From: Antedon mediterranea
Lineage: Eukaryota > Echinodermata > Crinoidea > Comatulida > Antedonidae
Assembly (NCBI RefSeq): GCF_964355755.1
Contig: NC_092672.1
Coordinates: 9,482,501 to 9,546,500, forward strand
Reading direction: 5' to 3'
DNA length: 64,000 bases
Shown here: positions 12,246 to 62,716 of the stretch, in pieces
Layout of the letters: every line of letters begins with the position of its first letter
Numbering within the stretch: the stretch's first letter is position 1
The notes under the pieces: generated by a model
What the model was told of the DNA's origin: nothing
The model's database searches: none
What the model saw: only the letters and a program-made list of their open reading frames with translations
Position numbers and translations under genes: made by a program

Positions 12246-13394
12246 ATGGATACTGCCGCCGGCATAATTAGCTCGGAATCTTTCTATCAATCATGGGGCG
12301 ACTACTCATCAATGAATATATCAGACTGGGATGGATTTATTCAGTCAATTTCATATACAATGGTGGATGAAATATTTATTGCCATATTTATGCCGATTGT
12401 CGTTATTTTTGGTATAATTGGTAACATACTAACTATCACTGTGATAGTTAGACATCAGCGCATGCGCACTTCTGTTAACGTATATTTAGCCAATATGGCG
12501 ATTGCTGATGCGATATTTCTTGCCATGGCACCTGATCTAGTATGGACTTCTTTGACCAATAGCCCAATACGTGACACGTACGATATTGGTATTCAAAATC
12601 CATGGGTGTGCAAATTCAACTTCTACGTCGTTGATGCAACATACGAAGTGGCAATCTTCACAATCGTCGCGATGTCCATCGAACGATATCGGGCAATCTA
12701 TCATCCGATTTCATTTCATAACAATAAGTCTGTATCGATTTTAAGAGCCATCCAGATATGTTGCTTTATATGGTTTATAACGTTAGCATGGCAGTCGAGG
12801 AAACTATTTTGGGTAGAAATGGTCGAATATCAATTTCCATGGCCTGACATGTATAATGGACTTCCGAATTTGACAACAGCGTGTGTTTTTTGTCTTGATG
12901 ACTTCGACTGCAAACTTGACAAGTATTTGTATATGTTTGATACTTGTTTATCATTGACACTCATGTTAGTTGTTGTCGGCCTTTATACAGCAATATTGAT
13001 CAAGCTCAGAACATCTACATTCAGTGCAGCGGGTAAAACAGCTAGATCAAAATCAGAGAAGAAAGTTTTCCTGACTGTGTTTCTGGCTGCCACTGCCTAC
13101 ATTGTTTGTACTGCACCCTTTGACGTTCTGAACATTATCCTGACCTATGGAGATGTTGATTATAACACTTCACTCAAAGCATTTAATATACTGCGCGTTG
13201 CACTGTATATGAATTCTTCAGTAAATCCAATAATATATAATGCTGTAAATGACGAATTTAGAAAAGCTTTTCTAAAAATATTTTATTGTAATTATCGTAA
13301 GCCCAAAGCAGCATGTGCTAATTCAGACCGTGAAGTAGGCCTAACTACCGTTTCACTGGTTTCATATTCCACGACAAATATTACAATAAACTAA
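12246..13394 (+). CDS. Class A (rhodopsin-like) GPCR A1, intact
   Basis: 382 residues with seven predicted membrane helices, probably in the plasma membrane. Landmarks: N60 in TM1 (GIIGN), D88 in TM2 (LANMAIAD), C122 at the top of TM3 paired with a Cys of CVFC in loop 2, E146-R147-Y148, W176 in TM4, and N327-P328-xx-Y331 in TM7, followed by a helix 8. TM6 reads YIVCTAPF, so the usual Trp before Pro291 is Thr, and TM5 has no central Pro. The short acidic N-terminus has an N-glycosylation site (NIS). The layout resembles peptide receptors, but no orthologue is recognised. ATG follows TTCCAG directly, indicating an upstream non-coding exon. AATAAA overlaps the stop codon. First of the plus-strand cluster. 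Confidence 0.93.
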   Translation: MDTAAGIISSESFYQSWGDYSSMNISDWDGFIQSISYTMVDEIFIAIFMPIVVIFGIIGNILTITVIVRHQRMRTSVNVYLANMAIADAIFLAMAPDLVWTSLTNSPIRDTYDIGIQNPWVCKFNFYVVDATYEVAIFTIVAMSIERYRAIYHPISFHNNKSVSILRAIQICCFIWFITLAWQSRKLFWVEMVEYQFPWPDMYNGLPNLTTACVFCLDDFDCKLDKYLYMFDTCLSLTLMLVVVGLYTAILIKLRTSTFSAAGKTARSKSEKKVFLTVFLAATAYIVCTAPFDVLNIILTYGDVDYNTSLKAFNILRVALYMNSSVNPIIYNAVNDEFRKAFLKIFYCNYRKPKAACANSDREVGLTTVSLVSYSTTNITIN

Positions 13395-14427
13395 TAGATA
13401 ATGTTTCACTAATGAATACGTTTCTTCAAGTATAAATTATAAGTTAAGCAGTTAGTGGCAGTAGTGACCACTTTTAGATTAGGTGTTGACTGTATTACTG
13501 TATATTTTAGAAGCTATAATATGAATTGTTATTTATTTATTTATTCTTTATACTGGGTAACCTCTTCAGTAAAACAAACTGTTCTCCCAGCCCAAAAATC
13601 ACAATCACTATAAAATTATAAACAATTTAAAACAAAGCAACGATACACATTTGAATCGAGTTATCAAGTACAAAGTAACAAACCTGAACAAAATAACGTA
13701 TATAATTGTTTCATGTCAATATTTAAATTAGAAATAGAAGAAGAAAAAAGATATGTATTTCTTACATTCAGTAGTTGTGAAATATTCACGTTATCAATAA
13801 AATGAATTGTGATCCAATAAAAAAAAGTAAGTCTATCGTTATGTCGCAATGTATAACGTTACTCCAACGTAATACACCACCACATAAGGAAACAGGGACT
13901 AAACTTTTTTTACAGCTCAAAAACTGGTAAATCTTCATTATACTAAGAAAAGTATGAATGCATATTTTTACCGGTACTGTTCTCCTTTGGATCCGGTATT
14001 AAGGTTACCATTTTGGGTGATTAAAGGTTATGTACATTATATTGGCTTCCCTGCTTTCTCTTATTTATGTTTGTGTCAGATATGTAAATGATCGATTGAT
14101 ATTTATACCACGGAGAAATAACTTCTATCTAACATCGGCTGACAATCGCACGTTGAGTGACGTCAACAAATGTTCTACAAAAACAATCCGACATAACATA
14201 AGATTCCCTTGGTTGTACAACCATGATAAGTAGTGCTCTGTCGTTCCTCGGAATAGTGAACATCTCGAGTTATCTGTATCTTTAATAGCCCAAATATTAA
14301 ACAGCGCACCCTATTTGCTCATATTCTAAGCGCTTAAGTTATATAAACATTGTTCATATGGGTAAATGAAGTTTATGGGTAAAAGAATAGTTTTTTTTAT
14401 CGATATTTATAATACTACTGTCTGCTA
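13395..14427. other. A1-A2 intergenic, shared with the A5 5' flank
   Basis: From about 13720 onward this is a diverged copy of about 23490-24130 upstream of A5. It shares the blocks GTGAAATATTCACGTTAT, TCTATCGTTATGTC and GGATCCGGTATTAAGGTTAC. No gene is seen. A short frame at 14030-14233 is not conserved as coding in the copy. Confidence 0.6.
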
Positions 14428-14760
14428 CTATACCCATGTTGGTTATACTCGCGCACAGTAATAATGAATAGGATACGATTAAAATCAGCGAAAAGTTTAC
14501 CACTGTGTGTACTCTATACCCATTTTGGTTGTACTCGCGCACATTGATAATGAATAAGATACGATTAAAATCAGCGAGAATTTTACCACTGTGCGTACTC
14601 TATACCCATTTTGGTTGTACTCGCGCACAGTGATAATGATTGGGATACAATTAAAATCCGCGAGAAGTTTACCACTGTGCGCAGTATGTACCAATTTTGA
14701 TTGTACTCGCGAACAGTGATAATGATTAAAATCAATGAGAAGTTTACCACTACGTTTCAA
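14428..14760. repeat. Tandem array, 86-bp unit, about 4 imperfect copies
   Basis: The word TACTCGCG recurs at 14446, 14532, 14618 and 14704, each 86 bp apart. It lies within units containing ATACCCATTTTGGTTGTACT, GTGATAATGA and AAGTTTACCACTGTG. The homologous flank of A5 (about 24150-24190) lacks the array, so it arose after that duplication or was lost there. Confidence 0.85.
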
Positions 14761-15060
14761 CGTAGGCCTACATGGCTGACCTACTGTAACATTCAGTCTC
14801 AAATGGTGGGTAACCTTGCCATCATATTATAAAACTGCAAAAGAAATTGATGCATTTTGGGAATTCAAAATATATTTATTTTATTTATTTTACTCAAGAT
14901 TACGTATAACAATAATAATCAACGACAAAGTGGAGTGGAATACATTGCATGATGATATAAAAGTTGATGGCTTGAAAAGTGTCACGAAAATCACTTACAT
15001 TCAATCTGACGTCCCGAAACGAAAGACCGCTACTAATTCATGAAATTACGACAAATACTT

Positions 15061-15330
15061 AACCTAACCCAGTCATACCGTCCAGTTTCGAACCTAACCC
15101 AGTCATACCGTCCAGTTTCGAACCTAACCCAGTCATACCGTCCAGTTTCGAACCTAACCCAGTCATACCGTCCAGTTTCGAACCTAACCCAGTCATACCG
15201 TCCAGTTTCGAAACTAACCCAGTCATACCGTCCAGTTTCGAACCTAACCCAGTCATACCGTCCAGTTTCGAACCTAACTCAGTCATACCGTCCAGTTTCG
15301 AACCTAACCCAGTCATACCGTCCAGTTTCG
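15061..15330. repeat. Minisatellite, 30-bp unit, 9 head-to-tail copies
   Basis: Nine nearly perfect copies of AACCTAACCCAGTCATACCG + TCCAGTTTCG; copy 6 starts AAACTAA and copy 8 has CTAACTC. The unit length is a multiple of 3 and has no stop on either strand, which creates a false repetitive open frame. The equivalent place upstream of A5 (about 24490-24530) has one diverged unit. It lies about 475 bp upstream of A2. Confidence 0.95.
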
Positions 15331-15728
15331 AAAACTCTCTGAATATTTGTTGATTGCTTAAGCTGGTATGCATGTTAGTGGTTAATCAAAATATATTTTT
15401 AAAATATTAGTTTTAGTACTAACTTTAATTTGCATTTATCAAGGTGATATATAAGCTTACATATTGTATTTACAATTGTCCGAACTTGACAATTAACATA
15501 TTTAGGTCAACGTATTCATTACCATTTTGAATTAATGTATTAAATATGTATTTACATTTTTATGATTTGTTTTCCTCAGCCAATTGTTGGTAGTTAATTT
15601 ACATCGTAAGACGAGTACGACAACATCACAACGACCCAAATACAAGAAAATGGTAAATATTAGTGAAGGTTAAAATATGACATGTTCGTTTAAATCGTGA
15701 ATGTATCATATCATTTGCATTTCGTTAG
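15331..15728 (+). promoter_or_regulatory. Predicted leader exon / promoter region of A2
   Basis: Shares ordered blocks with the A5 flank at 24540-24903, including TTTAGGTCAACGTAT and ATTTCGTTAG just before a consensus splice donor. TTAG|GTAAGT marks the end of a non-coding first exon at 15728, giving a 76-bp intron (15729-15804) that ends at the A2 start codon. Confidence 0.5.
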
Positions 15729-15804
15729 GTAAGTTAACATCCAAATTCATTATAAATTACTATCCACTACTACGTATTAATATGCCTATTTTATTTCCAT
15801 CTAG

Positions 15805-16906
15805 ATGATGGAAAATGTCGATGTATACGACAGTTACAGCTCGGAGTATTTCTATGATTGGAGTTACTACTTTTCGACAAACATGACTGCTGACTGGGAT
15901 GACTTCATTGAATCAATTTCATATACATTGAAGGATATAATTGTTATAGCCATTTATGCCTATTGTCGTTATTTTTGGCATAATCGGAAATATCACAACT
16001 ATTACTGTGATAGCTAGACATCAGCACATGCGCACTTCTGTTAATGTGTATTTAGCCGATTTGGCGATTGCGGATACGTTGTTTCTTGTATTCGCACCTG
16101 ATTTAATATGGACTTCTTTTGTTGATGGCCCACTACGAGATGAGTATAATATCGGTGTTGAAAAAACATGGTTTTGCAAGCTCAACTTCTACGTCGTCGA
16201 TACTACAATGCAAGTGGCTATTTTCACAATCTTTGCGATGTCCATAGACCGATATCGGGCAATCTGTCATCCTATTAAATTTCGTACCAGTAAGTCAGGA
16301 TCGGTATCTAGAACCATAAAGACATGTTGCTTTATATGGTGTATAACTTTAGCATGGCAGTCGAGGAAACTTGTTTGGGTAGAAATGGTCGCATTTAAAT
16401 TCCCATGGCCTGACATGTATAATGGAGTTCCAAATTCGACAACAACATGTGTTTATTGTGCTGATGAATTAGACTGTAAAATCAATGATTATCTGTATGC
16501 GTTTGATACTTGTTTATCTTTGGCACTTATTTTAGTTGTAGTTGGTCTTTATACGGCAATGTTGGTCACCCTTAGAAGATCGAAATTCACTGCAGCTACT
16601 TCCACAGGTAACAAATTAAGATCTAAATCCGAAAAGAAAGTTTTCATCACAGTGTTTCTGACCGTCACCGTCTACATTGTTTGTGTTGCACCATTTGGGA
16701 TTTTCAATAATATTCTAAGCTATGGAAATGTTGATTATAGTACTGCACTCCAAGTAATCAATATAATCCGTGTTGCACTATATATCAATTCGTCGGTAAA
16801 TCCTATCATATATAATGCTGTAAATGATACCTTTAGAAAAGCATTTCTAAATATATTTTATTTCAATAATGAAAAAAGAAAACACACGCCAATGCCCATA
16901 CAGTGA
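15805..16906 (+). pseudogene. Class A GPCR A2, frameshifted
   Basis: A receptor gene of the same family, open from ATG at 15805 to about 15950 in one frame and from about 15952 to 16906 in another. Compared with A1 and A4, two bases are missing where ATATTTATGCC is expected in TM1 (here CATTTATGCC, 15950-15959), which causes the shift. Everything after is intact: AIAD in TM2, DRY, PWPDMYNG, YIVCVAPF in TM6 and NSSVNPIIY in TM7. A downstream ATG at 15956 would give a product lacking the N-terminus and half of TM1. A clean TTCCATCTAG acceptor precedes the first ATG. It could be a young pseudogene or an assembly error. The tail is shorter than in A1 or A4 and ends KRKHTPMPIQ. Confidence 0.85.
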
Positions 16907-17981: not shown

Positions 17982-19060
17982 ATGGGTAATGATGATGTCA
18001 ACTATAGTAGCTCAGAATAATATGTCTATGTATCACGGAGCGACTACCTGTACTCTTCAACGAATATGACTGACTGGGATGACTTTATTCACCCAATATC
18101 ATACACAATGATGGATAAAATCGTCATCACGGTATTTATGCCGATTGTCGTTATGTTTGGTACAATTGGAAACATAATGACCATTATTGTGATTTTTAGG
18201 TATCTGCACATGCGCAATTCTGTTACTGTGTATTTAGCCAATACGTTGTTTCTTGCGTTAGCACCTGGTTTAATATGGACTTCTTTTGTTGATGGTCCAC
18301 TACGCAGCGAGTATAATATCGGTGTTGAAAAAACATGGTTTTGCAAATTCAACTTCTACGTCGTCGATACTACAATGCAAGTGGCGATTTTCACAATCTT
18401 CGCGATGACCATCGACCGATATCGAGCAATCTGTTATCCTTTTAAATTTCGTACCAGTAAGTCAGGATCGTTTTCTAGAACCATACCGATATGTTGCTTT
18501 ATATGGTGTATAACACTAGTATGGCAGTCACGGAAACTTGTTTGGGTAGACATGATCGAATATCAATTCCAATGGCCTGACATGTATAATGGCGTTCCAA
18601 ATTCGACAACAACATGTGTTTATTGTGTTGATTGTAAAATAAATGATTATCTTTATGTGTTTGATACTTCTTTATCATTGACACTTATTTTAGTTGTTGT
18701 TGGTTTGTATACAACACTGTTGGTCACGCTTAAAAGATCTCCTTTTACTGCAGCCAATTCAACAGGTTACACATCAAGATCAAAATCAGAGAAGAAAGTT
18801 TTCCTGGCAGTGATTCTGACCGTCACCGTCTACATTGCTTGTACTGCTCTATTTGGTATTTTTCCATTATTATATTAAGCAGTCTAACTGTTGATTTTAA
18901 CACTGCAATCAAAACAATTAATATACTCCGTGTTGCACTATATATAAATTCGTCGGTAAATCCTATCATATATAATGCTGTAAATGATACCTTTAGAAAA
19001 GCTTTTCTAAATACAGTAAGGCCTAATTGTAAAAATAATTGTAGGAAGAGAATAAAGTAA
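17982..19060 (+). pseudogene. Class A GPCR A3, heavily damaged
   Basis: Readable over its whole length but broken several ways. ATG at 17982 starts MGNDDV..SSSE and meets an in-frame TAA at 18018-18020. A 15-bp in-frame deletion in TM2 removes the LAIAD segment with the conserved sodium-site Asp (YLANTLFL near 18234-18250). Loop 2 lost three residues before DCKIND. The TM6 Pro is changed (CTALF). A frameshift near 18850-18878 then throws TM7 into another frame that runs to 19060. TM3 with DRY, PWPDMYNG (with Q before PW changed) and NSSVNPIIY are still clear. These lesions together make a working receptor unlikely. Confidence 0.93.
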
Positions 19061-20745: not shown

Positions 20746-20880
20746 GTACGGTACGTATTGCTGAGTGTTTTTTAAGTGTTCTATTCGCACTATCAATGGT
20801 ATGTTGGCTTTATGGGGAGCTTAATTTGTATGTAGTATGCTAATGTATACGCAGTAATTTTTTCTTATTTATATTTCCAG

Positions 20881-22038
20881 ATGGGCAACGAGGAAGCCTC
20901 CTACGATAGTAGCTCAGAATATTTCTATCAATCATGGACCGACTATTCTTCAATGAACATGAGCGACTGGGATGACTTCATTCAATCAATTTCATATACA
21001 ATGGTGGATAAAATCGTCATCACAATATTTATGCCGATTGTGGTTATTTTTGGTATAATTGGAAATATAATGATTATAACTGTGATAGCTAAAAATCAGC
21101 GCATGCGTACTTCGGTTTACGTATATTTAGCTAACTTGGCGATTGCGGATATGTTGTTTCTTACGTTGGCACCTGATTTATCATGGACTTCAATTGTTAA
21201 TGGCCCAATACGAGACGAATATAATATCGGTGTTGAACAAAAATGGATTTGCAAGTTCAACTTTTACGTCGTCGACACTACAGTTCAAGTTGCAATTTTC
21301 ACAATCGTCGCGATGTCCATCGAACGATATCGGGCAATCTGTCATCCTATTACATTTCGAAGTAATAAGTCCAGGTCGATGTTAAGAGCCACACAGATAT
21401 GTTGCTTGATATGGTGTATAACTTTAGCATGGCAGTCGAGGAAACTTGTTTGGATAGAAATGATCACACACCAATTTCCATGGCCTGACATGTATAATGG
21501 AGTCCCAAACTTAACAAAAACTTGTGTTTATTGTAATGATGAATTCGACTGTAAAATTGATGAAACTCTGTGGGTGTTTGATACTTGTTTAACGTTGACG
21601 CTTATTTTAGTTGTTGTAGGTTTGTATACGGCAATTTTAGTCAAGCTTAGGAAATCTAAATTCAGTGCAGCCAATTCCACAGGTAGCAAACAAAGATCAA
21701 AATCTGAGACGAAAGTTTTCCTGACTGTGTTTCTGATTGTCACTGTCTATATTGTTTGTATTGCGCCATTCGAGTTTCTGACTGTTGTCCTAATTGTTAG
21801 CGATTACGGAGATGATTTTGCTATTAAAACAATTAATATACTCCGTGTTGCACTATATATAAATTCATCGGTAAATCCAATCATATACAATGCTGTGAAT
21901 AATGAGTTTAGACGAGCTTTTCAAGAAATGTTTAATTGTAAAAAAAATGAGAAGTCAAAGCCAACGTCTGATAATACTGACCGTACACTAACTGCTGTTT
22001 CATGTGTGTCACACTCAATGACAGGTACACAACCATAG
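20881..22038 (+). CDS. Class A GPCR A4, intact
   Basis: 385 residues, seven helices. Acidic N-terminus with SSSEYFYQSW and NMS glycosylation site, then FMPIVVIFGIIGN (TM1), LANLAIAD (TM2), ERYRAICHP after TM3, CCLIWCITLAWQSRK (TM4), PWPDMYNG and CVYC in loop 2, RSKSETK before TM6, YIVCIAPF (no Trp), NSSVNPIIY, and a 45-residue Ser/Thr-rich tail. ATG lies directly after TTTCCAG. Poly(A) signal AATAAA at 22062-22067 is followed by a GT-rich stretch. The coding 3' two thirds and about 1.4 kb downstream are closely matched in A5, showing a recent duplication. Ligand unknown; peptide- or chemoreceptor-like by overall layout only. Confidence 0.93.
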   Translation: MGNEEASYDSSSEYFYQSWTDYSSMNMSDWDDFIQSISYTMVDKIVITIFMPIVVIFGIIGNIMIITVIAKNQRMRTSVYVYLANLAIADMLFLTLAPDLSWTSIVNGPIRDEYNIGVEQKWICKFNFYVVDTTVQVAIFTIVAMSIERYRAICHPITFRSNKSRSMLRATQICCLIWCITLAWQSRKLVWIEMITHQFPWPDMYNGVPNLTKTCVYCNDEFDCKIDETLWVFDTCLTLTLILVVVGLYTAILVKLRKSKFSAANSTGSKQRSKSETKVFLTVFLIVTVYIVCIAPFEFLTVVLIVSDYGDDFAIKTINILRVALYINSSVNPIIYNAVNNEFRRAFQEMFNCKKNEKSKPTSDNTDRTLTAVSCVSHSMTGTQP

Positions 22039-24979: not shown

Positions 24980-26086
24980 ATGATGGAAAATGTCAATGCA
25001 TACGAAAGTTACAGCTCGGAGTATATCTATGATTGGAATTACTACACTTCAACAAACATGACCGATTGGGATGACTTCATTGAATCAATCTCATATACAA
25101 TGGTGGATAAAATCATCATCATCATATTTATGCCGATTGTCGTTGTTTTTGGCATAATTGGAAATATCACAACTATTGCTGTGATAGCTATAAATCGGCG
25201 TATGCGTACTTCGGTTAACGTATATTTAGCCAACTTGGCGATTGCGGATACGTTGTTTCTTGCGTTGGCACCTGATTTATCATGGACTTCAATTGTTAAT
25301 GGTCAACTACGCGATGAGTATAATATCGGTGTTGAAAAAACATGGATTTGCAAGTTCAACTTCTACGTCGTCGACACTACAGTCCAAGTTGCAATTTTTA
25401 CAATCCTCGCGATGTCCATCGAACGATATCGGGCAATCTGTCATCCTATTGCATTTCGAAGTAATAAGTCCCGATCGATGTTAAGAGCCACACAGGTATG
25501 TTGCTTGATATGGTGTATAACTTTAGCATGGCAGTCGAGGAAACTTGTTTGGATAGAAATGATCACACACCAATTTCCATGGCCTGACATGTATAATGGA
25601 GTCCCAAACTTAACAACAACTTGTGTTTATTGTAATGATGAATTCCACTGTAAAATTCATGAAACTCTGTGGGTGTTTGATATTTGTTTAACGTTGACGC
25701 TTATTTTAGTTGTTGTTGGTCTGTATACGGCAATTTTAGTCAAGCTTAGGAAATCTAAATTCAGTGCAGCCAATTCCACAGGTAACAATCCAAGATCAAA
25801 ATCTGAGATGAAAGTTTTCCTGACTGTGTTTCTGATTGTCACTGTCTATATTGTTTGTATTGCGCCATTCGCGTTTCTGAATGTTGTCCTAATTGTTAGC
25901 GAATACGGAGATGATTTTGCTATTAAAACAATTAATATACTCCGTGTTGCACTATATATAAATTCATCGGTAAATCCAATCATATACAATGCTGTGAATA
26001 ATGAGTTTAGACGAGCTTTTCAAGAAATGTTTAATTGTAAGAAAAGTGGGAAGTCAAAGCCAACTTCTGGTAACACTGTACACTAA
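24980..26086 (+). CDS. Class A GPCR A5, intact, mosaic gene
   Basis: 368 residues from the ATG at 24980, chosen because it follows the splice acceptor TTCCATCCAG. The in-frame ATG at 24959 lies inside the predicted intron. N-terminus and TM1 (MMENV..SYSSEYIYDW, GNITTI) resemble A2. From loop 1 on (RRMRTSVNVYLANLAIADTL, ERYRAICHPI, CLIWCITLAWQSRK, WIEMITHQFPWPDMYNG, CIAPF, NSSVNPIIYNAVNNEFRRAF) it is nearly A4. DxDE in loop 2 has become DEFHCKIH. All helices and the ERY and NPxxY motifs are present and TM6 has Ile in place of Trp. The tail is 10-15 residues shorter than in A4. Poly(A) signal at 26180-26185. Confidence 0.93.
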   Translation: MMENVNAYESYSSEYIYDWNYYTSTNMTDWDDFIESISYTMVDKIIIIIFMPIVVVFGIIGNITTIAVIAINRRMRTSVNVYLANLAIADTLFLALAPDLSWTSIVNGQLRDEYNIGVEKTWICKFNFYVVDTTVQVAIFTILAMSIERYRAICHPIAFRSNKSRSMLRATQVCCLIWCITLAWQSRKLVWIEMITHQFPWPDMYNGVPNLTTTCVYCNDEFHCKIHETLWVFDICLTLTLILVVVGLYTAILVKLRKSKFSAANSTGNNPRSKSEMKVFLTVFLIVTVYIVCIAPFAFLNVVLIVSEYGDDFAIKTINILRVALYINSSVNPIIYNAVNNEFRRAFQEMFNCKKSGKSKPTSGNTVH

Positions 26087-32254: not shown

Positions 32255-33348
32255 ATGGATAGTTCCAAAGTCTACAATAGTAGCAGAGAATATGTATATG
32301 AATCATCGTTTGTGACCGACCACTGGGATGACTTAATTCAATTAATGTCATATACAATGGTGGATAAAATCATCATCACCGTATTTATGCCGATTGTCGT
32401 TATTTTTGGTATAATTGGGAATATCACAACTATTACTGTGATAGCTAGAAATCAGCGCATGCACACGTCTGTTAACGTGTATTTAGCCAACTTGGCGATT
32501 GCGGATACGTTGTTTCTTGCGTTGGCACCTGATTTAATTTGGACGTCTTTTGTTGGTCATGGCTCAATGAACATTGAGTTTATGAATAATATTAAGAAAA
32601 AATGGATTTGCAAGTTTAATATTTACTTCGTTGACACTGCAGTCCAAGTTGCAATTTTCACAATCTTTGCGATGTCCTTCGACCGATATCGGGCAATCTG
32701 TCATCCAATTAAATTTCGTACCAGTAAGTCACGATCGTTTTCTAAAACCATAAAGACATGTTGCTTTATATGGCTTATAACTTTAGCTTGGCAGTCCAGG
32801 AAGCTGGTTTGGGTAGAAATCACCGCATTTAAATTTCCTTGGCCTGACATGTATAATGGAGTTCCAAAATCGACAACAACATGTGTTTATTGTGCACGTT
32901 CTGATGAATTAGACTGTAGAATTGATGATTATATTTATGTTTTTGATACTTGTCTATCATTGACACTTATTTTAGTTGTTGCCGGTTTGTATACGGCAAT
33001 GTTAATCACGCTAAAACGATCTACTTTCACTGCAGCTAATTCCACAGGTAACAAATCAAGATCAAAATCCGAGAAGAAAGTTTTCTTGACTGTGTTCCTG
33101 ACCGTCACCGTCTACATTGTTTGTGCTGCGCCATTTGGTCTTCGGAATATTATCGTCCTTTATACAGTAGCTATGTTGATTTTAAAACTTCACTCAAAAG
33201 TATTAATATAGTGCGTGTTTTAATATACATAAATTCTTCGGTAAATCCAATCATATATAATGCTGTAAATAATGAATTTAGACAAGCTTTTCTAGATATG
33301 TTTTATTGTAAGAATCGTGGAAACACTAACCGTACACTAACTGTTTAA
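32255..33348 (+). pseudogene. Class A GPCR A6, frameshifted before TM7
   Basis: Open from ATG at 32255 (right after TATTTCTTTAG) through TM6 in one frame, stopping at 33211. TM7 and the tail (SINIVRVLIYINSSVNPIIYN..) continue in a second frame to 33348. The shift lies in loop 3, near 33165-33180, by comparison with A1 (NIILTYGDVDYNTS). Otherwise complete: GIIGN, LANLAIAD, FDRYRAICHP, PWPDMYNG, YIVCAAPF. Loop 1 is longer than in sisters (GHGSMNIEFMNNIKKK) and loop 2 has two extra residues (CARSDELDC). One indel only, so sequencing error remains possible. Confidence 0.85.
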
Positions 33349-34299
33349 TGTGCATAACACTCAACGACAGGTACACAATAGCTCAGCCACAGGTATCAGA
33401 TAGTTTCAGATATATCTGTTAAATGTACAACAATTAAAACTATGTTACAGAAATTACGGGTGAAAAACATATTCAACAACATTGAAATGGTTTACGACCG
33501 AACATGGACATTTTACGAAATTTGCTAAATCCATCTTCCAACACCTAACTGCCTTATTATGTATTGCAGGCAAAAAGGCTTTGGATATAATACCTGTTAA
33601 AATACAACAATGTGATCATATTTAAACTTTCAAATTAAATTACAAACAAATTGTATATATTTTATTTTCTACAGTATATTGATATTTCAACTTCATTTCA
33701 CTGTAGCTTAGCGTCTCTTTATGGTTATTTTCATATTTACAAAAAGGACAATTGTACCACCTTATTTCTGAATTATGTTTTCCTGTAAAAATATTTTTTT
33801 AAATAAAAATAAATACACTTCTCTTTAAATTGTTTAATACAGAATTTGTCAAAATTCTGCTGTAAAAACCCCTTTTCAGTATAGTTTTCATGTTATCAGA
33901 TGACTTCCAATTTCGTTTTCATGTTACTTCAAGTTTGTGGGTGTACGGTGATAAAAATTGTAAAATCTATTTTAAAATAGTGATCTCATAACACCGTTTA
34001 TTTTTCATAATTTAAAATATACCTTTGTATTACAACATTTGTATACAACGGAATATGGGCAATTTGAACTGTCCACTTATTATGAACGTGCTTATTTTCC
34101 GACAAATCCTGTAAAAAACATTATGAAACATTAGGGGAATCTATAGATCGATAATTATTGGAATGTAACACTCTTTGGCTGCATCTGGTCTTTCTCACTA
34201 ACAATGTTATACCTAATTTATGTGTAAACTATTTAGAAATAATTAGGCTGTATTGTGTGTTCAATACTCACTTACTCATACTAACATAATGCATGGTTT
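33349..34299. other. A6 3' flank, first copy of a duplicated segment
   Basis: Blocks at about 33740-34250 recur in order at about 34510-34810 (ACCACCTTATTTCTGAATTATG at 33756 and 34534; TGCATCTGGTCTTT at 34180 and 34750). This shows a local duplication with indels. On the minus strand a remnant reading WYNCPFCKYENN hints at a decayed zinc-binding reading frame, but no gene can be supported. Confidence 0.4.
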
Positions 34300-35699: not shown

Positions 35700-36001
35700 T
35701 AGTTACGATCAGACTATTTTTATGAAATATGGACCGGCTACTCTTCAATGTATAGAAATTATTGGAATCAATCGATTTCGATACAATGGTGGATAAAATC
35801 GTAATCACCATATTTATGCCGATTGCAGTTTTTATTTACATAATTGGAAAGATAATGACTATTACTGTGATTTTTAGATATCAACGCATGCGGACTTCTG
35901 TCAACGTGTATTAAACAAACTTGGCGATTGCGGATACGTTGTTTCTTGTATTCGTACTTGATTTAATTTGGACTTCTTTTGTTGATGGCCCACTACGCAA
36001 T
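35700..36001 (+). pseudogene. Class A GPCR A7, truncated relic
   Basis: Sequence from the N-terminal segment to the first extracellular loop of a cluster-A receptor. MVDKIVITIFMPIAV is readable, but GN of TM1 is GK, VYLAN is interrupted by TAA (GTGTATTAAACAAAC, about 35905-35919), and similarity stops after DGPLR at about 36001, where unrelated DNA begins. The N-terminal part is also out of frame. No start ATG equivalent is preserved. It is the most decayed recognisable full 5' end in the array. Confidence 0.88.
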
Positions 36002-36522
36002 GTCTTTATTTTGGACAAGATCCATCAGACATTGACTGATTGCTCTATTGAGTAACATGTGTCAAGGTTTTATTTCTCAAAAACCTAATTTATATAAATT
36101 TAATTATGAGCCCCATAATTGGCTACTGTTTAATGTCCCCTATGTCAGATCCTTCTATCTCATATTATAACAAAATCACCTTACACCATTTTGGTCACAA
36201 CTTATAACATTGCCTTGGATGTCGCCCTCTGGAAAACCAGTGTTTTTTTAAGAATAATAATTATATCACGTGGATTTATTAATAGAATTTTAATTTAAAA
36301 TGTTTCGTACACTACGTATTCACTCACATTGCAAAATAATCGGCTTCATGTTGGTCACAACTCGTACTACAATAGATACATAGTTAGAAACACTGAAATT
36401 CAGCAAAGTGTACGTATTTATTGGTGTAGCATGACATGTTTGTATAAGTTGTAAATGTGTACTGTTTATTGTTGAATCGTAATCATAATCATACATTTAT
36501 TGAGTTTATTTTATTTTTTTAG
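36002..36522. other. A8 5' flank
   Basis: No gene. About 36420-36480 (GCATGACATGTTTGTATAAG) resembles the leader region of A2 and A5 (TGACATGTTAGTATAAATTG). An acceptor TTTTTTTAG ends at 36522; the matching donor was not placed. Confidence 0.4.
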
Positions 36523-37653
36523 ATGATGGACAATGTCAACAGCAGTTATTCTTATGATTGGAGCGACTATTCTTCAAAGGACATGTACGGTTGGGATGAA
36601 GTTATTGAAATGTATTCATATTCATTAGTGGACAAAATTGTTATTGTCATATTTATGCCGATTGTAGTTATTTTTGGTATAATCGGAAATATAATGACTA
36701 TCGTTGTGATAGTGCGAAATCAGCGCATGCACACTTCTGTAAACGTGTATTTTGCCAACTTGGCGATTGCAGATACGTTGTTTCTTGCGTTGGCACCTGA
36801 TTTATTTTGGACTTCTATTGTTGATAGCCCACTACGCTTTGAGTATAATATCGGTGTTGAAAATACATGGATTTGCACGTTCTACTTATACGTTGTAGAT
36901 ACTGTGTTTCAAGTGGCAATTTTCATAATCTTTGCAATGTCAATCGACCGATATAAGGCAATCTGTTATCCTATTAAATTTCGGATCAATAATTCAGGAT
37001 CGGTTTCTAGAACCATAAAGACGTGTTGCTTAGTATGGTGTATAACTTTTGCATGGCAGTCGAGGAAGCTTGTTTGGGTAGAAATTTTCACCCGGTCATT
37101 TCCATGGCCTGACATGTATAATGGCGTTCCAAATTCAACAACAACATGTGCTTATTGTGTTGATGAATTAGACTGTAAAATCAATGAATATCTTTATGTG
37201 TTTGATACATGTTTATCGTTAACACTTATTTTAGTTGTTGCTAGTTTGTATAGGACAATGTTAATCACGCTTAAAACATCTCCTTTTATGGCAATCAATT
37301 CAGTTAACAAATCCAGATCTAAATCCGAGAAGACAGTTTTTCTTACTGTGTTTCTGACCGTCACCGTCTTCATTGTATGTACTGCACCATTTGGGATTTT
37401 CAATTTTATTAGCATCTTTGGAAATGTTAATTATAAAAATACAGTTAATCCAGCTAATATATTACGTCTTGCACTGTTGATAAATTCGTCGGTAAATCCA
37501 ATTATATATAATGCTGTAAATGACAGGTTTAGAAAAGCTTTTCTAAATACATTTTGTTGTAATAATTATTGTAAGTACACAAAACACACACTAACCAATG
37601 ACCATGTGGTTACTCCTGTTTTTCTTGTAGCATACTTAAAGACACATAATTAA
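36523..37653 (+). CDS. Class A GPCR A8, intact
   Basis: 376 residues, last gene of the plus-strand cluster. GIIGN (TM1), YFANLAIAD (TM2), TWICTFYLYVVDT with the TM3 Cys, DRYKAICYP, CCLVWCITFAWQSRK (TM4), PWPDMYNG and CAYC in loop 2, RSKSEKT before TM6, FIVCTAPF (no Trp), NSSVNPIIY. It differs from its sisters in YRTML at the end of TM5, IIFAMS in TM3 and a distinctive tail. ATG directly follows TTTTTTTAG. Its 3' end and flank are partly duplicated at 38688-39003, and the far flank recurs upstream of B1, B2 and B3, linking the two clusters. Ligand unknown. Confidence 0.92.
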   Translation: MMDNVNSSYSYDWSDYSSKDMYGWDEVIEMYSYSLVDKIVIVIFMPIVVIFGIIGNIMTIVVIVRNQRMHTSVNVYFANLAIADTLFLALAPDLFWTSIVDSPLRFEYNIGVENTWICTFYLYVVDTVFQVAIFIIFAMSIDRYKAICYPIKFRINNSGSVSRTIKTCCLVWCITFAWQSRKLVWVEIFTRSFPWPDMYNGVPNSTTTCAYCVDELDCKINEYLYVFDTCLSLTLILVVASLYRTMLITLKTSPFMAINSVNKSRSKSEKTVFLTVFLTVTVFIVCTAPFGIFNFISIFGNVNYKNTVNPANILRLALLINSSVNPIIYNAVNDRFRKAFLNTFCCNNYCKYTKHTLTNDHVVTPVFLVAYLKTHN

Positions 37654-42008: not shown

Positions 42009-42308
42009 TAAACTAGCCGCGTCGGTGAAAATAGTAATAATAATAATAATATTTATTCAATCACCAAATAAAAAAAAGTGAGTGAGATTAGGCTAAAAAT
42101 CCCAAATATATTCTGCACTCGCTCATAGCAATATATAATTTATTATGGATTCATATAACGCCTAATGTCGTGAAACCTCTAAGCTCTGTAGACCTGTAGA
42201 CATAGGCTACAAACAGGAAAAGGTGCAATAAAATATTCACTACTGTAGTAATGTGTATCGTCTATGTAATTTGACAAATAGTTTAATATTAACAAATATA
42301 TGAAATGG

Positions 42309-43445
42309 TCATCCATTGACGTAGGCGGGGTTTGTCTGTGAAACCACTGTAACTCCACTCGTCTTCTTGCTATTTCGCCGTCTGCAGAAAACATCGACAA
42401 ATGCTTTCCTAAACATTTCATTTACAACATTATACATGAAAGGATTAACGGACGAATTTGTATAAAGTGCAACACGAAATATGTTGACTATCTGAAGTAT
42501 AACATTATGGTCAATGCCATGGTAGATATTCACTATGTTCATGATTGAGAATGGTGCCATACAAAATATGTAGATAGTTACAGTTAGGAAGATCGTCATA
42601 AAGACCTTTTTTTCTGATTTTGACCTTACTTTATTACCCGTTGAATTGGCTGTTGCAACGGTTGATCTTTTGAGTGTAATCAGGATTATTGTATAGAAAC
42701 CAACTACAATTGTTATTAGGATAAACGATAAATAACTATCGATCACAAATAGATCATTTTGAAAATCACAACTGTCAGTGTTCGCACCACAGTAAGTACA
42801 TACTATCGTTGAATTTGGAGCCCCGTTGTACATATCAGGCCATGGGAATTCATATGAAACTATAGCGTTCCAAGTAAATTTCCGGGCCTGCCATGTTAAG
42901 GATATTAGCCACATGATAACGCAGACTTGTAAAGATCTCGAACGTTCTCCAAATTTACTGTTCCGAAATTTCAAAGGGTGACAAATTGCAAGATATCGTT
43001 CAGCAGACATCCAGAAGATTGTGAAATTTGCAACTTGCAACGCAGTGTCCACGATGTAAATGTTTAGGTGGCAAAACCATAGCATACCCTCTCCGATGCC
43101 CATGTCAAATACATCGTGTAATGGACTGTGCGCAAAGGATGACCATATCAGATCAGGAGCAAAGCAAAGAAACAGAACGTCAGCAATCGCTAAGTTGGCT
43201 AAATACACGTTGACTGATGTGCGCATGCGAGGATGTTTCACTATTACAGTGATTGTCATTAGATTCCCAATAATACCGATAATTACAACAATTGGCATAA
43301 ATATTGTGATAACAATTTCATCTGTAGTTGTATAGGAGTACGATTTGATTACGTCATCCCAATCGGTCTCCTCAACTTTTCCTATGACATCAGTCGTCGA
43401 CTCATTCACAATATTCGAATCGGTGTAAAAAGTTGATTTGTTCAT
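42309..43445 (-). CDS. Class A GPCR B1, intact
   Basis: 378 residues, first gene of the minus-strand cluster. N-terminal glycosylation sites (NKS, NES), N61 of GIIGN, D89 of LANLAIAD, C125, E149-R150-Y151, W179, FPWPDMYNG then an N-glycosylation site (NST) and Cys216/219 in loop 2, RSKSEKK before TM6, YIFCMAPF (Met in place of Trp), NSSVNPFMY, and the tail ending NPAYVNG. Distinguished from cluster A by HxLxxYIVDTA in TM3 and a longer loop 2 (CGANTDSC). Leader: the minus strand reads TTATTAAG|GTGAAAAAATG, and a donor GGACAG|GTAAGA ends exon 1 at 44405, giving a 951-bp intron. Nearly identical to B2-B4. Confidence 0.94.
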   Translation of the reverse strand: MNKSTFYTDSNIVNESTTDVIGKVEETDWDDVIKSYSYTTTDEIVITIFMPIVVIIGIIGNLMTITVIVKHPRMRTSVNVYLANLAIADVLFLCFAPDLIWSSFAHSPLHDVFDMGIGEGMLWFCHLNIYIVDTALQVANFTIFWMSAERYLAICHPLKFRNSKFGERSRSLQVCVIMWLISLTWQARKFTWNAIVSYEFPWPDMYNGAPNSTIVCTYCGANTDSCDFQNDLFVIDSYLSFILITIVVGFYTIILITLKRSTVATANSTGNKVRSKSEKKVFMTIFLTVTIYIFCMAPFSIMNIVNIYHGIDHNVILQIVNIFRVALYTNSSVNPFMYNVVNEMFRKAFVDVFCRRRNSKKTSGVTVVSQTNPAYVNG

Positions 43446-44902
43446 TTTTTCACCTTAATAAATAAAATAAACGTTAAATAAATAAATGGTATATCTATAA
43501 ACAGCCTAGATTAAAACAAACTGCGTACATGTTAAACAAGGCCTACACAAGTGAGCAAAAAATTGGGATAATTTAACCAAAAATAGAAAGGAACTCTTTT
43601 TTCATGAAACAAATTAATTTTGCAATTAAGTTTCTTTGCTAAATCATCAATTGTAATTATTACATAACCGTGTTTAATATTGTATATAAGGATTTGTATT
43701 AACAATGCCATTACAAGATTTTGTTTAGAGGCCTAAGGACATTTTTCAATGGTTTTGATGGTACCCGTTTTATTATTACTGTATTTCTAACGAACATCCT
43801 AACGACATGACTATAGACAGTACAATTACTGCAGTAATAACAGTTTAGACAGTACAATTATTGCAGTAATAACAGTTTTTACTTAATTTTTGTAGAACTT
43901 GTGCTTTAATATAGTGTTTTCTGTAAAACAGAATAAATCTTGTATTTGGTATCATCACCTTATAACTACATAAAGTAATACATCGTGTCTTTTGAATAAT
44001 AATTTTATGTTTGATTCTGTTTAATTCCTTCCAGAAATCGATCAATCGGCTCGATCTGGGCCAAATTGCCTAGGATTCTTATTATCAATACAGGAAAAGC
44101 GTGCAGTATCCGACGCGATATAACTGTTTTATTTGCTATAATCTACAACTGGCTCAGGTTGGTACGGTCCTGGGATTTTAAATTAAATCCCTTTATTTCG
44201 TCCTCAATAGGAACATTTAAAGCGTATTCCATGTATAGTACGTTACATAAAAATATTATTTGAGAATATGAAAAAAAAGCGAAACGTGTAGTCTTGTTTT
44301 CTGCATGACAGCGAGATTTGAGAACAATAATTACGGTTCATAAAATAAAACTCTAAAAGTTCACAAGATGAAGTACTGTGTACTTAAGCTTAAAAATGTC
44401 TTACCTGTCCTTTTTCCTTCAATGTTAATAGTAACTGCTGCAATTCCGATTAAAGTAACTCTGATACTCTTAGTGCGGGAAGGGGCTTGCCGTGTAAAAT
44501 AGTTCACACAATTTAAGGCAGATAGTTATAACGGTACCGGTATTACATTAATTAACAGGCGTGGCTTGTATTTGATTGGCTGATACCTCCAGATAATTAG
44601 TTATTACACTATAAAAGAATTTGGTTAGTTCTTTAATGTTGGAATCTACTTAATTGTATTGAAGGTATTAATTAATATATAAACATGAACAATTTTACTT
44701 TGACTAACATTATATTTTAATTAAAATATAACTTATCATTGCCCATCAGCACCAATCCGAAAAGTAGGCTATAGTTCTTGATGTGCATGTATAGGGAACA
44801 CACATGAGTCTTGCGTCCCTTTTGAATCCTTTTTGTAGATAAGTCCAATAATTTGATTTTGCGAAATGGAAAAAGTGACCAAGTTAAAAAGGGGTCTATA
44901 AC
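43446..44902 (-). promoter_or_regulatory. B1 leader intron, non-coding exon 1 and upstream flank
   Basis: Intron 43454-44404; exon 1 ends at 44405 (GAAGGAAAAAGGACAG). Upstream, CTTTTATAGTG near 44605-44615 (minus) is a possible core promoter, and CCAATCA lies beyond it. About 44683-44770 is the block shared with the A8 3' flank. The same layout is present for B2 and B3. Confidence 0.5.
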
Positions 44903-49312: not shown

Positions 49313-50449
49313 TCATCCATTGACGTAGGCGGGGTTTGTCTGTGAAATTACTGTAACTCCGCTCGTCTTCTTGCTATTTCGCCGTCTGCAGAAAACATCG
49401 ACAAATGCTTTTCTAAACATTTCATTCACAACATTATATATGAATGGATTAACGGACGAATTTGTATAACTTGCAACACGAAATATGTTGACTATCTGAA
49501 GTTTAACATTATGGTCAATACCATGGTAGATACTCACTATGTTCATGATTGAGAATGGTGCCATACAAAATATGTAGATAGTTACAGTTAGGAAGATCGT
49601 CATAAAGACCTTTTTTTCTGATTTTGACCTTACTTTATTAACCGTTGAATTGACTGTTGCAACGGTTGATCTTTTGAGTGTAATCAGGATTATTGTATAG
49701 AAACCAACTACAATTGTTATTAGGGTAAACGATAAATAACTATCGATCACAAAAAGATCATTTTGAAAATCACAACTGTCGGTGTTCGCACCACAGTACG
49801 TACATACTATCGTTGAATTTGGAGCCCCGTTGTACATATCAGGCCATGGGAATTCATATGAAACTGTAGAGATCCAAGTAAATTTCCGGGCCTGCCATGT
49901 TAAGGATATTAGCCACATGATAACGCAGACTTGTAAAGATCTCGAACGTTCTCCAAATTTACTGTTCCGAAATTTCAAAGGGTGACAAATTGCAATATAT
50001 CGTTCAGCAGACATCCAGAAGATTGTGAAACTTGCAACTTGCAACGCAGTGTCCACGATGTAAACGTTTAGGTGGCAAAACCATAGCATACCCTCTCCGA
50101 TGCCCATGTCAAATGTATCGTGTAATGGACTGTGCGCAAAGGATGACCATATCAGATCAGGAGCAAAGCAAAGAAACAGAACGTCAGCAATCGCTAAGTT
50201 GGCTAAATACACGTTGACTGATGTGCGCATGCGAGGATGTTTCACTATTACAGTGATTGTCATTAGATTCCCAATAATACCGATAATTACAACAATTGGC
50301 ATAAATATTGTGATAACAATTTCATCTGAAGTTGTATAGGAGTACGACTTGATTACGTCATCCCAATCGGTTTCCTCAACTTTTCCTATGACATCAGTCG
50401 TCGACTCATTCACAATATTCGAATCGGTGTAAAAAGTTGATTTGTTCAT
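49313..50449 (-). CDS. Class A GPCR B2, intact
   Basis: 378 residues from the ATG at 50449; a longer reading from GTG at 50458 only extends into the leader. All receptor landmarks are as in B1. It differs at scattered sites: ERYIAICHP, TWISTVSYEF, NSTVNK (glycosylation-like motif altered in loop 3), IMNIVSIYHG, HNVKLQIV, FRVASYTN, and NPFIYN where B1 has NPFMYN. No frame damage. Leader intron 50459-52175, with the donor shifted in context (GATGG|GTAAGA) and carrying a 0.76-kb LINE fragment. Confidence 0.94.
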   Translation of the reverse strand: MNKSTFYTDSNIVNESTTDVIGKVEETDWDDVIKSYSYTTSDEIVITIFMPIVVIIGIIGNLMTITVIVKHPRMRTSVNVYLANLAIADVLFLCFAPDLIWSSFAHSPLHDTFDMGIGEGMLWFCHLNVYIVDTALQVASFTIFWMSAERYIAICHPLKFRNSKFGERSRSLQVCVIMWLISLTWQARKFTWISTVSYEFPWPDMYNGAPNSTIVCTYCGANTDSCDFQNDLFVIDSYLSFTLITIVVGFYTIILITLKRSTVATVNSTVNKVRSKSEKKVFMTIFLTVTIYIFCMAPFSIMNIVSIYHGIDHNVKLQIVNIFRVASYTNSSVNPFIYNVVNEMFRKAFVDVFCRRRNSKKTSGVTVISQTNPAYVNG

Positions 50450-56258: not shown

Positions 56259-57395
56259 TCATCCATTGACGTAGGCGGGGTTTGTCTGTGAAACTACTGT
56301 AACTGCACTCGTCTTCTTGCTATTTCGCCGTCTGCAGAAAACATCGACAAATGCTTTCCTAAACATTTCATTTACAACATTATACATGAAAGGATTAACG
56401 GACGAATTTGTATAAAGTGCAACACGAAATATGTTGACTATCTGAAGTATAACATTATGGTCAATGCCATGGTAGATATTCACTATGTTCATGATTGAGA
56501 ATGGTGCCATACAAAATATGTAGATAGTTACAGTTAGGAAGATCGTCATAAAGACCTTTTTTTCTGATTTTGACCTTACTTTATTACCCGTTGAATTGGC
56601 TGTTGCAACGGTTGATCTTTTGAGTGTAATCAGGATTATTGTATAGAAACCAACTACAATTGTTATTAGGGTAAACGATAAATAACTATCGATCACAAAT
56701 AGATCATTTTGAAAATCACAACTGTCGGTGTTCGCACCACAGTAAGTACATACTATCGTTGAATTTGGAGCCCCGTTGTACATATCAGGCCATGGGAATT
56801 CATATGAAACTATAGCGATCCAAGTAAATTTCCGGGCCTGCCATGTTAAGGATATTAGCCACATGATAACGCAGACTTGTAAAGATCTCGAACGTTCTCC
56901 AAATTTACTGTTCCGAAATTTCAAAGGGTGACAAATTGCAAGATATCGTTCAGCAGACATCCAAAAGATTGTGAAATTTGCAACTTGCAACGCAGTGTCC
57001 ACGATGTAAAAGTTTAGGTGGCAAAACCATAGCATACCCTCTCCGATGCCCATGTCAAATACATCGTGTAATGGACTGTGCGCAAAGGATGACCATATTA
57101 GATCAGGAGCAAAGCAAAGAAACAGAATGTCAGCAATCGCTAAGTTGGCTAAATACACGTTGACTGATGTGCGCATGCGAGGATGTTTCACTATTACAGT
57201 GATTGTCATTAGATTCCCAATAATACCGATAATTACAACAATTGGCATAAATATTGTGATAACAATTTCATCTGTAGTTGTATAGGAGTACGATTTGATT
57301 ACGTCATCCCAATCGGTCTCCTCAACTTTTCCTATGACATCAGTCGTCGACTCATTCACAATATTCGAATCGGTGTAAAAAGTTGATTTGTTCAT
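56259..57395 (-). CDS. Class A GPCR B3, intact
   Basis: 378 residues, the copy closest to B1. It differs by ADILFL for ADVLFL, CHLNFYIV for CHLNIYIV, TWIAIV for TWNAIV, LSFTLI for LSFILI, and KTSAVTVV for KTSGVTVV. ERY, PWPDMYNG, CMAPF and NPFMY are unchanged. Leader acceptor TTAAG|GTGAAAAAATG is present; donor GGACAG|GTAAGA at 58390/58389 gives a 986-bp intron. Coding and flanks show no decay, consistent with a functional gene or very recent duplication. Confidence 0.94.
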   Translation of the reverse strand: MNKSTFYTDSNIVNESTTDVIGKVEETDWDDVIKSYSYTTTDEIVITIFMPIVVIIGIIGNLMTITVIVKHPRMRTSVNVYLANLAIADILFLCFAPDLIWSSFAHSPLHDVFDMGIGEGMLWFCHLNFYIVDTALQVANFTIFWMSAERYLAICHPLKFRNSKFGERSRSLQVCVIMWLISLTWQARKFTWIAIVSYEFPWPDMYNGAPNSTIVCTYCGANTDSCDFQNDLFVIDSYLSFTLITIVVGFYTIILITLKRSTVATANSTGNKVRSKSEKKVFMTIFLTVTIYIFCMAPFSIMNIVNIYHGIDHNVILQIVNIFRVALYTNSSVNPFMYNVVNEMFRKAFVDVFCRRRNSKKTSAVTVVSQTNPAYVNG

Positions 57396-60620: not shown

Positions 60621-61579
60621 ACCATCTATAAGTGTAGCCACAATAACGAGTATGCTCTTTTGGTTGTTCATACTGTGTTGCTTCATATTAAATTTCGATT
60701 CTATTATCTAATCACATGCAATTTTGGAAATAAATCAGTTGACGATATAAAAAGTTTCCCGTGTCTGTTTCTTTTAACACTAGCGCCCCCAGTGGGCATT
60801 TTAATTTTTTTGGGAACAAGTAGATCTTGGCAAAAAATACGATGAAAATGTTCATATGCCATATTTAGCCCCCTCTATGGTTTATACATTATAATTATGC
60901 AAATTTCACGATCCTAGATGTGATTAATCTGTATGCGCAGTTATTATTTAAAGAACATGAATTCTAACGAATCATACTGCGTAACTATAGAAAAAAATAG
61001 TTCCCAGTCGAAGTATAGTTGTTATGGCACGTCGTGTCTGCCAAACTATTTTCTTTTTATAAAAATTAGACCAAATCGCCGTCTAGAACCTAAACTAGCC
61101 GCGACGGTGAAAATAGTAATAATAATATTTATTCGGTCACCAAAAAATAAGTTAGTGAAAAATCCCAAATATATTCTGCACTGCTCATAGCAGTCTATTC
61201 CGTGCTCTGTATTATGTTCAATTTTTCTTTTCTTTCAAGTGTGAATTTTGTTAAGAAGCAGGCAGAGTACAATGCAGTTTGTCATATATTTAGTAGGAAT
61301 TGAAACGGGTAAAAGAAAGGGCGGCATGTTGTAACTCATATATACTCACGTGAAATACATACGTAATAACACTGGGATTTAAAAAATGAAACTTTATTAC
61401 TCAAAATAAAATTGTTTAAATTTTAATATATAATTTATTATGGATTCATATAACGCCTAATGTCGTGAAACCTCTAAGCTCTGAGGCCTACATAGACTAG
61501 AAACTGAAAAAGGTGCAATACAATATTTACTACTGTAGTAATGTATACTTGACAGTTTATTAACAAATATATGAAATGG
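60621..61579. other. B4 3' flank
   Basis: Flank repeat at about 60885-61095 with ATGCAAAT. The duplicated TATTCACT block seen after B2 and B3 is missing, so the region is shorter. No gene is seen. Confidence 0.5.
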
Positions 61580-62716
61580 TCATCCATTGACGTAGGCGGG
61601 GTTTGTCTGTGAAACCACTGTAACTGCACTCGTCTTCTTGCTATTTCGCCGTCTGCAGAAAACATCGACAAATGCTTTCCTAAACATTTCATTTACAACA
61701 TTATATATGAAAGGATTAACGGACGAATTTGTATAAAGTGCAACACGAAATATGTTAACAATCTGAAGAATAACATTAAGGTCAATGTCATGGTAGATAT
61801 ACACTAGGTTCATAATTGAGAATGGTGCCATACAAAATATGTAGATAGTTACAGTTAGGAAGATCGTCATAAAGACCTTCTTTTCTGATTTTGACCTTAC
61901 TTTATTACCCGTTGAGTTGGATGTTGCAAAGGTTGATCGTTTGAGTGTAATCAGAATTATTGTATAGAAACCAACTACAATTGTTATTAGGGTTAACGAT
62001 AAATAACTATCGACCACAAAAAGATCATTTTGAAAATCACAACTGTCGGTGTTCGCATCACAGTAAGTACATACTGTCGTTGAATTTGGAGCCCCGTTGT
62101 ACATATCAGGCCATGGGAATTCATATGAAACTATAGCGATCCAAGTAAATTTTCGGGCCTGCCATGTTAAGGATATCAGCCACATTATAACGCAGACTTG
62201 TATGGATCTCGAACGTTCTCCAAATTTACTGTTCCGAAATTTCAAAGGGTGACAAATTGCAAGATATCGTTCAGCAGACATCCAGAAGATTGTGAAACTT
62301 GCAACTTGCAACGCAGTGTCCACGATGTAAAAGTTTATGTGGCAAAACCATAGCATACCCTCTCCGATGCCCATGTCAAATGCATCGTGTAATGGACTTT
62401 GCGCAAAGGATGACCATATTAGATCAGGAGCAAAGCAAAGAAACAGAATGTCAGCAATCGCCAAGTTGGCTAAATACACGTTGACTGATGTGCGCATGCG
62501 AGGATGTTTCACTATTACAGTGATTGTCATTAGATTCCCAATAATACCGATAATTACAACAATTGGCATAAATATTGAGATAACAATTTCATCTGAAGTT
62601 GTATAGGAGTACGATTTGATTACGTCATCCCAGTCGGTCTCCTCAACTGTTTCTATGACATCAGTCGTCGACTCATTCACAATATTCGAATCGGTGTAAA
62701 ACGTTGATTTGTTCAT
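61580..62716 (-). CDS. Class A GPCR B4, intact, most diverged of cluster B
   Basis: 378 residues with all landmarks of B1 but more substitutions: ETVEETDWDD, SDEIVISIFM, AQSPLHDAF, CHINFYIV, RSIQVC, NSTTVCTYCDAN, VVDSYLSLTL, STFATSNSTG, NLVYIYHDIDLN, and NPFIYN. The changes are mostly conservative and concentrated in loops. Acceptor TTTTTTAG|AGTGAAAAATG is kept. The duplicated unit ends at about 62880, so the exon-1/promoter segment of B1-B3 is not present. Expression would need a new first exon; GA|GTAAGTTT on the minus strand near 63356 is one candidate donor. Confidence 0.93.
   Translation of the reverse strand: MNKSTFYTDSNIVNESTTDVIETVEETDWDDVIKSYSYTTSDEIVISIFMPIVVIIGIIGNLMTITVIVKHPRMRTSVNVYLANLAIADILFLCFAPDLIWSSFAQSPLHDAFDMGIGEGMLWFCHINFYIVDTALQVASFTIFWMSAERYLAICHPLKFRNSKFGERSRSIQVCVIMWLISLTWQARKFTWIAIVSYEFPWPDMYNGAPNSTTVCTYCDANTDSCDFQNDLFVVDSYLSLTLITIVVGFYTIILITLKRSTFATSNSTGNKVRSKSEKKVFMTIFLTVTIYIFCMAPFSIMNLVYIYHDIDLNVILQIVNIFRVALYTNSSVNPFIYNVVNEMFRKAFVDVFCRRRNSKKTSAVTVVSQTNPAYVNG

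Follow-up and report, generated by a model that had tools for sequence, protein, structure and literature searches.

The window, a 64-kb stretch of the Antedon mediterranea genome (C3:9482501-9546500), contains a tandem array of G protein-coupled receptor (GPCR) genes. The assembly spans 354 Mb, nearly all of it in eleven large contigs of 22-41 Mb each. By combining an open reading frame (ORF) listing with tblastn, we identified exactly eight intact copies of the receptor and four broken ones in the 64 kb (Table 1). The A subfamily comprises four intact and four broken copies, all on the plus strand between 12 and 38 kb, and the B subfamily comprises four intact copies, all on the minus strand between 42 and 63 kb. 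Because the A genes run rightward and the B genes leftward, the two subfamilies are arranged tail to tail. This confirms an earlier note on this DNA, which had described two opposed subfamilies of one family with eight intact and at least four broken members.

Table 1. Receptor copies and associated features, in window coordinates.
Feature	Position	Strand	Description	Basis
A1	12246..13394	+	Intact receptor, 382 aa	ORF; Pfam 7tm_1 5e-34
A2	15826..16906	+	Broken: one frameshift in TM1, rest open	tblastn, translation
A3	17982..19051	+	Broken: stop near codon 14; 5-aa loss including D2.50; TM6 frameshift	tblastn, translation
A4 acceptor	20860..20880	+	AG splice acceptor with its pyrimidine-rich tract, abutting the A4 ATG	Upstream DNA alignment
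A4	20881..22038	+	Intact receptor, 385 aa; numbering reference	ORF, Pfam, PDB search
A5	24980..26086	+	Intact receptor, 368 aa, with a shorter C-terminal tail; shares 87% identity with A4	ORF, Pfam, tblastn
A6	32255..33378	+	Broken: single frameshift after TM6	tblastn, translation
A7	35709..36007	+	Relic: N-terminus to TM2/ECL1 only	tblastn, translation
A8	36523..37653	+	Intact receptor, 376 aa	ORF, Pfam
B1 unit	42230..44902	-	Duplicated unit containing B1; 56179-58887 matches it at 97% identity over 2.7 kb	Self-comparison
B1	42309..43445	-	Intact receptor, 378 aa	ORF, Pfam
B2	49313..50449	-	Intact receptor, 378 aa	ORF, Pfam
B3	56259..57395	-	Intact receptor, 378 aa; 96% identical to B2	ORF, tblastn
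B4	61580..62716	-	Intact receptor, 378 aa; earliest-diverging B copy	ORF, Pfam, tree

The longest ATG-initiated ORF encodes 385 aa, compared to at most 142 aa in 20 shuffles of the DNA. All seven intact proteins scanned matched Pfam 7tm_1 over the whole model, with E values of 1e-32 to 1e-36 (the eighth, B3, is 96% identical to B2). Relative to A4, identity was 61-87% for A members and about 54% for B members; relative to B2, it was 93-96% within B. Overall A-to-B identity was 51%. In a genome-wide search, the next relative on C3 lay 3.7 Mb from the array, indicating that the array is complete within the window. The few neighbours that we examined consisted of an AGXT-like enzyme and retroelements, and an Rfam scan of the window returned no match.

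Each receptor gene in the window has one coding exon, as the earlier note had said, and an upstream non-coding exon is likely besides. In each of the six A copies examined, a splice acceptor, made up of a pyrimidine tract and AG, abuts the start codon. In the B copies, the AG lies a few bases upstream of the ATG, and small indels between the two indicate that this short stretch is non-coding. Similar acceptors precede the ATG in three relatives elsewhere in the genome (L076, L077, and L079). Units of up to several kilobases were duplicated along with the B genes, and therefore the copies arose at the DNA level. Retroposition was considered as an origin and rejected, because the acceptor before the ATG was retained and kilobases of flank were duplicated together with the genes.

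Searches of the whole genome recovered more than 100 matching stretches, the weakest of which were ordinary class A receptors. At least 73 sequences were placed together in a superclade, in which the window genes form a small branch. The largest related array lies on a different chromosome (C2:4.31-4.68 Mb; hereafter the sister array), with further arrays at C2:4.83, C2:8.9, C2:9-16.5, C5:23.7, and C5:27.4 Mb and single copies on several chromosomes, including a single-copy relative on C9 (L023). The 50-kb array described in the earlier note is real and complete, but it makes up only a small branch of the superclade, the main array of which is on another chromosome. As a separate observation on this genome, a coding pattern for GLRFHKGAPFG, a crinoid SALMFamide, occurred exactly once (reversed control, 0; estimated chance expectation, ~1e-5 hits), which marks the source as a crinoid rather than a sea urchin; this peptide is reported to form the end of an L-type SALMFamide precursor in all three crinoids studied (PMC9793003).

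A second B cluster was found at C3:13.75-13.78 Mb; within C3:13.735-13.785 Mb, we read the parts L017, L018, L020, and L024. The cluster has a single intact copy, which the tree places among the B copies of the window. One of the remaining copies is frameshifted, and two are interrupted at codon 259 by a stop common to both, in units that are 99% identical over 3.5 kb. A shared stop in near-identical units suggests either that a dead copy was itself duplicated or that the stop spread by gene conversion. The birth-and-death turnover that the earlier note had proposed for the array is supported.

By their sequence marks, the window receptors are class A, peptide-type GPCRs. N1.50, D2.50, the (D/E)RY motif, P6.50, NPxxY, and C3.25 with its ECL2 cysteine are present along with the full-length 7tm_1 match; apart from W6.48, no key class A residue is missing from the intact copies. 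The second Pfam match after 7tm_1 was the nematode Srw family. Searches of the PDB with a single window protein gave weak and scattered matches (1e-24; NMUR2, opioid, SSTR, and TRHR), and a profile of all eight intact proteins reached 1e-31 to SSTR2, followed by opioid receptors and NMUR2. By contrast, an ordinary orthologue in the same genome (L083) matched SSTR2 at 1e-54.

To place the family, we built a tree with human TRHR, NMUR2, GALR1, and CCKAR and receptors from the same genome; the human TRHR query was identical to PDB 7wkd at 337/337 residues. The 73 superclade sequences sampled grouped with support of 99/95. Human and crinoid TRHR paired outside the superclade (99/97), and the superclade, the TRHR pair, and NMUR2 fell together in a group supported at 96/98. 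On this tree, the superclade is related to, yet distinct from, the TRH and neuromedin-U receptors. The earlier note had expected a lineage-specific clade, and the tree agrees, placing the window genes as one-to-one orthologues of none of the human or same-genome receptors sampled. We had considered membership in TRHR itself on the grounds of R7.39 and a shared TM7 pattern, and rejected it on finding a separate TRHR orthologue in the genome, a two-exon locus at C8:28.2 Mb. The ligand-contact positions of TRHR are Y3.33, N3.37, Y6.51, and R7.39; of these, the window copies have R7.39 only, with D3.33, Q/E3.37, and F6.51 at the others. Both the reading of R7.39 and the placement near TRHR depend on a tree that has long branches and samples few receptors from outside the crinoids.

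The superclade is also marked by its own residues. None of its 73 members carries the W6.48 toggle, whereas 47 of the 58 other class A receptors sampled do, and R7.39 occurs in 55/73 members vs. 0/58 of the others; these 58 were taken from among the best 7tm_1 matches and do not cover the full repertoire. The W6.48 (CWxP) toggle is common but not universal in class A, and its absence is not disqualifying. Of 72 superclade members, 52 carry an ECL2 motif, PWP[D/N/H], that no receptor outside the superclade has, the single match counted among the others being L024, a broken B copy. The olfactory signature LxxPxYxxxxxLxxxDxxxxxxxxP had no exact match among 72 superclade members (window copies match 2 to 3 of its 6 letters), and the Pfam olfactory family 7tm_4 stayed below the cut-off for the window proteins.

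We then compared selection and predicted ligand pockets. Every pairing of intact copies within A, and likewise within B, gave a dN/dS of 0.28-0.50; these ratios show purifying selection on the window receptors. The pocket was defined as 32 generic-numbered positions and compared with the remaining helix positions; it was set by generic numbering alone because an AlphaFold model of 11 window sequences was unusable (pLDDT 34). Between A and B, predicted pocket identity was 0.60 vs. 0.59 at non-pocket helix positions, and between A/B and the single-copy relative L023, it was 0.57 vs. 0.45. In the sister array, the corresponding values were 0.33 vs. 0.62, with pocket identity below all 4000 random helix draws (P<1/4000) and still low when the random sites were taken from the extracellular half (P = 0.008). 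ECL3 of that array also had a pN of 0.39, above its pS of 0.28. Within A, predicted pocket identity was 0.68 vs. 0.76 (P about 0.11), a comparison among only four intact members in which a moderate pocket change could be missed, and ECL3 and the N-terminus are variable. The predicted pocket thus appears hypervariable in the sister array and nearly unchanged across the window A and B receptors.

These results would fit a recently duplicated receptor set that purifying selection holds to a single ligand or a narrow class of ligands while birth and death continue, an interpretation to which we give an even chance. The window holds a complete tandem array, formed by repeated DNA-level duplication of few-kilobase units and representing one branch of the superclade. 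Under this interpretation, all A and B receptors may share one ligand or a narrow range of charged or polar ligands. The ligand would enter under a conserved ECL2 lid (FPWPDMYNG..N..C..C) and be held by the predicted contacts D3.33, K4.60, D5.43, and R7.39. Activation would move TM6 without the usual W6.48 toggle, with G protein coupling through the (E/D)RY motif, and extra copies may alter dosage or expression site more than specificity. A diverse set of odours is less likely as the ligand than an endogenous peptide or a single external cue that recurs.

The array might instead be chemosensory, with A and B responding to different chemicals from the surroundings in the tube feet, the pinnules, or the larvae, a role proposed for sea urchin surreal-GPCRs and starfish ApORs; this is possible but rather unlikely. 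Tandem, single-coding-exon, birth-and-death arrays have also been described for echinoderm olfactory receptor (OR)-like genes (PMC5442662, PMC7042368), the related sister array has a hypervariable predicted pocket, and the variable ECL3 and N-terminus in A point the same way. However, the predicted pocket is conserved between A and B despite their 51% overall identity, and neither the olfactory signature in the 72 sequences tested nor the Pfam olfactory family above its cut-off was detected. The earlier suggestion of a chemosensory expansion consequently holds in part: the pocket comparison reveals chemosensory-type diversification in the C2 relatives and none among the window genes, so that chemoreceptor-like diversification would reside at C2:4.31-4.68 Mb rather than here. 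A wider scenario links the two limbs, with a crinoid peptide-hormone receptor lineage near TRHR/NMUR losing W6.48 and being recruited into a large sensory superfamily in which the C2 limb diversifies its pocket and the window limb keeps a fixed one; we consider this scenario unlikely as a whole.

It is distinctly unlikely that the copies are mostly redundant products of recent duplication with little functional meaning, of which one or two act as an ordinary peptide receptor. The B copies differ by a dS of only 0.016-0.105, 4 of the 12 window copies are broken, and the two premature-stop copies in the second B cluster fit such redundancy as well. Still, dN/dS is low in every intact pair, and key class A positions other than W6.48 are retained in the intact copies; both points argue against it. 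Least probable by far are immune-type receptors on coelomocytes, such as chemokine-like or danger peptide receptors, which the earlier note had also raised and for which we obtained no support. The general fact that immune receptors also undergo birth and death speaks for them, but the nearest known receptors are neuropeptide types, the predicted pocket is conserved, and no immune gene occurred among the few neighbours examined. The preferred interpretation therefore remains a recently duplicated set with a single or narrow ligand specificity.

Arrays with conserved and hypervariable predicted pockets make the question of a dedicated ligand vs. an odour set directly testable, and a whole clade without W6.48 is a natural test of whether that switch is necessary. 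If the receptors are sensory, they would be a further case of animals turning peptide-hormone receptors to chemosensation, here starting from a TRHR/NMUR-like ancestor. If the sensory-superfamily scenario is true, generalist and dedicated receptors could be compared within one genome.

Lineage-specific rhodopsin-type expansions in echinoderms are already known: tandem expansions of this kind have been reported in sea urchin, starfish, and sea cucumber and treated as olfactory, with the OR motif present to varying degrees in the sea cucumber receptors (PMC5442662, PMC7042368). In the open-access literature, we found GPCR-repertoire papers for sea urchins, starfish, and sea cucumbers, no crinoid GPCR survey, and nothing matching an earlier description of such an expansion. 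Crinoids are the sister group of other echinoderms. Among known receptors, the closest comparison is with the beta-rhodopsin TRHR/NMUR group, with which the superclade shares the 96/98 grouping and, with human and crinoid TRHR, R7.39, which in TRHR is a known ligand contact. The window clade differs in lacking W6.48 and in forming a separate 99/95 clade in a genome that has its own two-exon TRHR. Like the surreal-GPCRs of sea urchins, the window genes belong to a lineage-specific set of rhodopsin-type receptors that expanded rapidly within an echinoderm, although the host here is a crinoid and the likeness is one of description. The crown-of-thorns ApORs and sea cucumber OR-l1 to OR-l4 similarly form tandem arrays and both-orientation clusters of mostly single-exon genes under purifying selection (PMC5442662, PMC7042368), but they are filed as olfactory, whereas the window receptors are peptide-type and lack the OR motif. 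With vertebrate olfactory receptors, the window genes share a single coding exon, a probable upstream non-coding exon, and arrays with pseudogenes, yet they lack the OR signature, fall below the 7tm_4 cut-off, and belong to another branch of class A.

Kin of the receptor family in the window also occupy other parts of the genome (Table), and the most extensive group is an array on chromosome C2, which spans 0.37 Mb and holds ~35–40 receptors along with many relics. The predicted ligand-binding pocket is hypervariable in this array. The C2 array is the better candidate for a chemosensory repertoire than the array in the window.

Table. Features located in the window and elsewhere in the A. mediterranea genome
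Feature	Location	Strand	Basis or remark
Class V aminotransferase gene, alanine-glyoxylate aminotransferase-like	window 3700-8760	-	multi-exon; Pfam PF00266, 7e-32
Short tandem repeat, period 60 bp	window 15061-15332		units nearly identical; self-comparison
Large inverted repeat	window 28376-31607		self-comparison of window DNA
Two retroelement ORFs	window 44972-46581	-	between B copies
229-aa ORF	window 53355-54044	+	
Receptor array kin to window family	C2:4.31-4.68 Mb	nearly all same	genome-wide search for relatives
Dense array, single-exon class A receptors	C3:4.81-4.89 Mb		
Small receptor cluster (L065 and neighbours)	C3:13.25-13.34 Mb		genome search, tree
Second B cluster (L017, L018, L020, L024)	C3:13754290-13777262		
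Dense array, single-exon class A receptors	C3:31.55-31.65 Mb		
TRH receptor orthologue (L139, L140)	C8:28206122-28209709		two exons

Related clusters also lie elsewhere on C3. In the tree, locus L065 was placed within the clade of the C2:4.4 Mb array despite its position on C3, indicating movement between chromosomes. Two copies in the second B cluster have an identical premature stop and belong to near-identical units, so either one copy was already a pseudogene when it was duplicated or conversion carried the stop from copy to copy. Those members of the two dense C3 arrays that were placed in the tree fall outside the superclade containing the window family.

Within the window, the receptor array adjoins the aminotransferase gene, and the tandem repeat sits upstream of the broken A-subfamily copy A2. 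One of the two retroelement ORFs (45766-46581, minus strand) matched RVT_1 in Pfam (1.7e-28). The 229-aa ORF, which returned no match in a Pfam scan, resembles the terminal part of a polyprotein from a retroelement. The inverted repeat, with ~820-bp arms that are 91.5% identical around a ~1.6-kb spacer, is probably a transposable element.

Finally, although the main text of a published survey of crinoid neuropeptides (PMC9793003) does not mention TRH, this crinoid genome does encode an orthologue of the TRH receptor.
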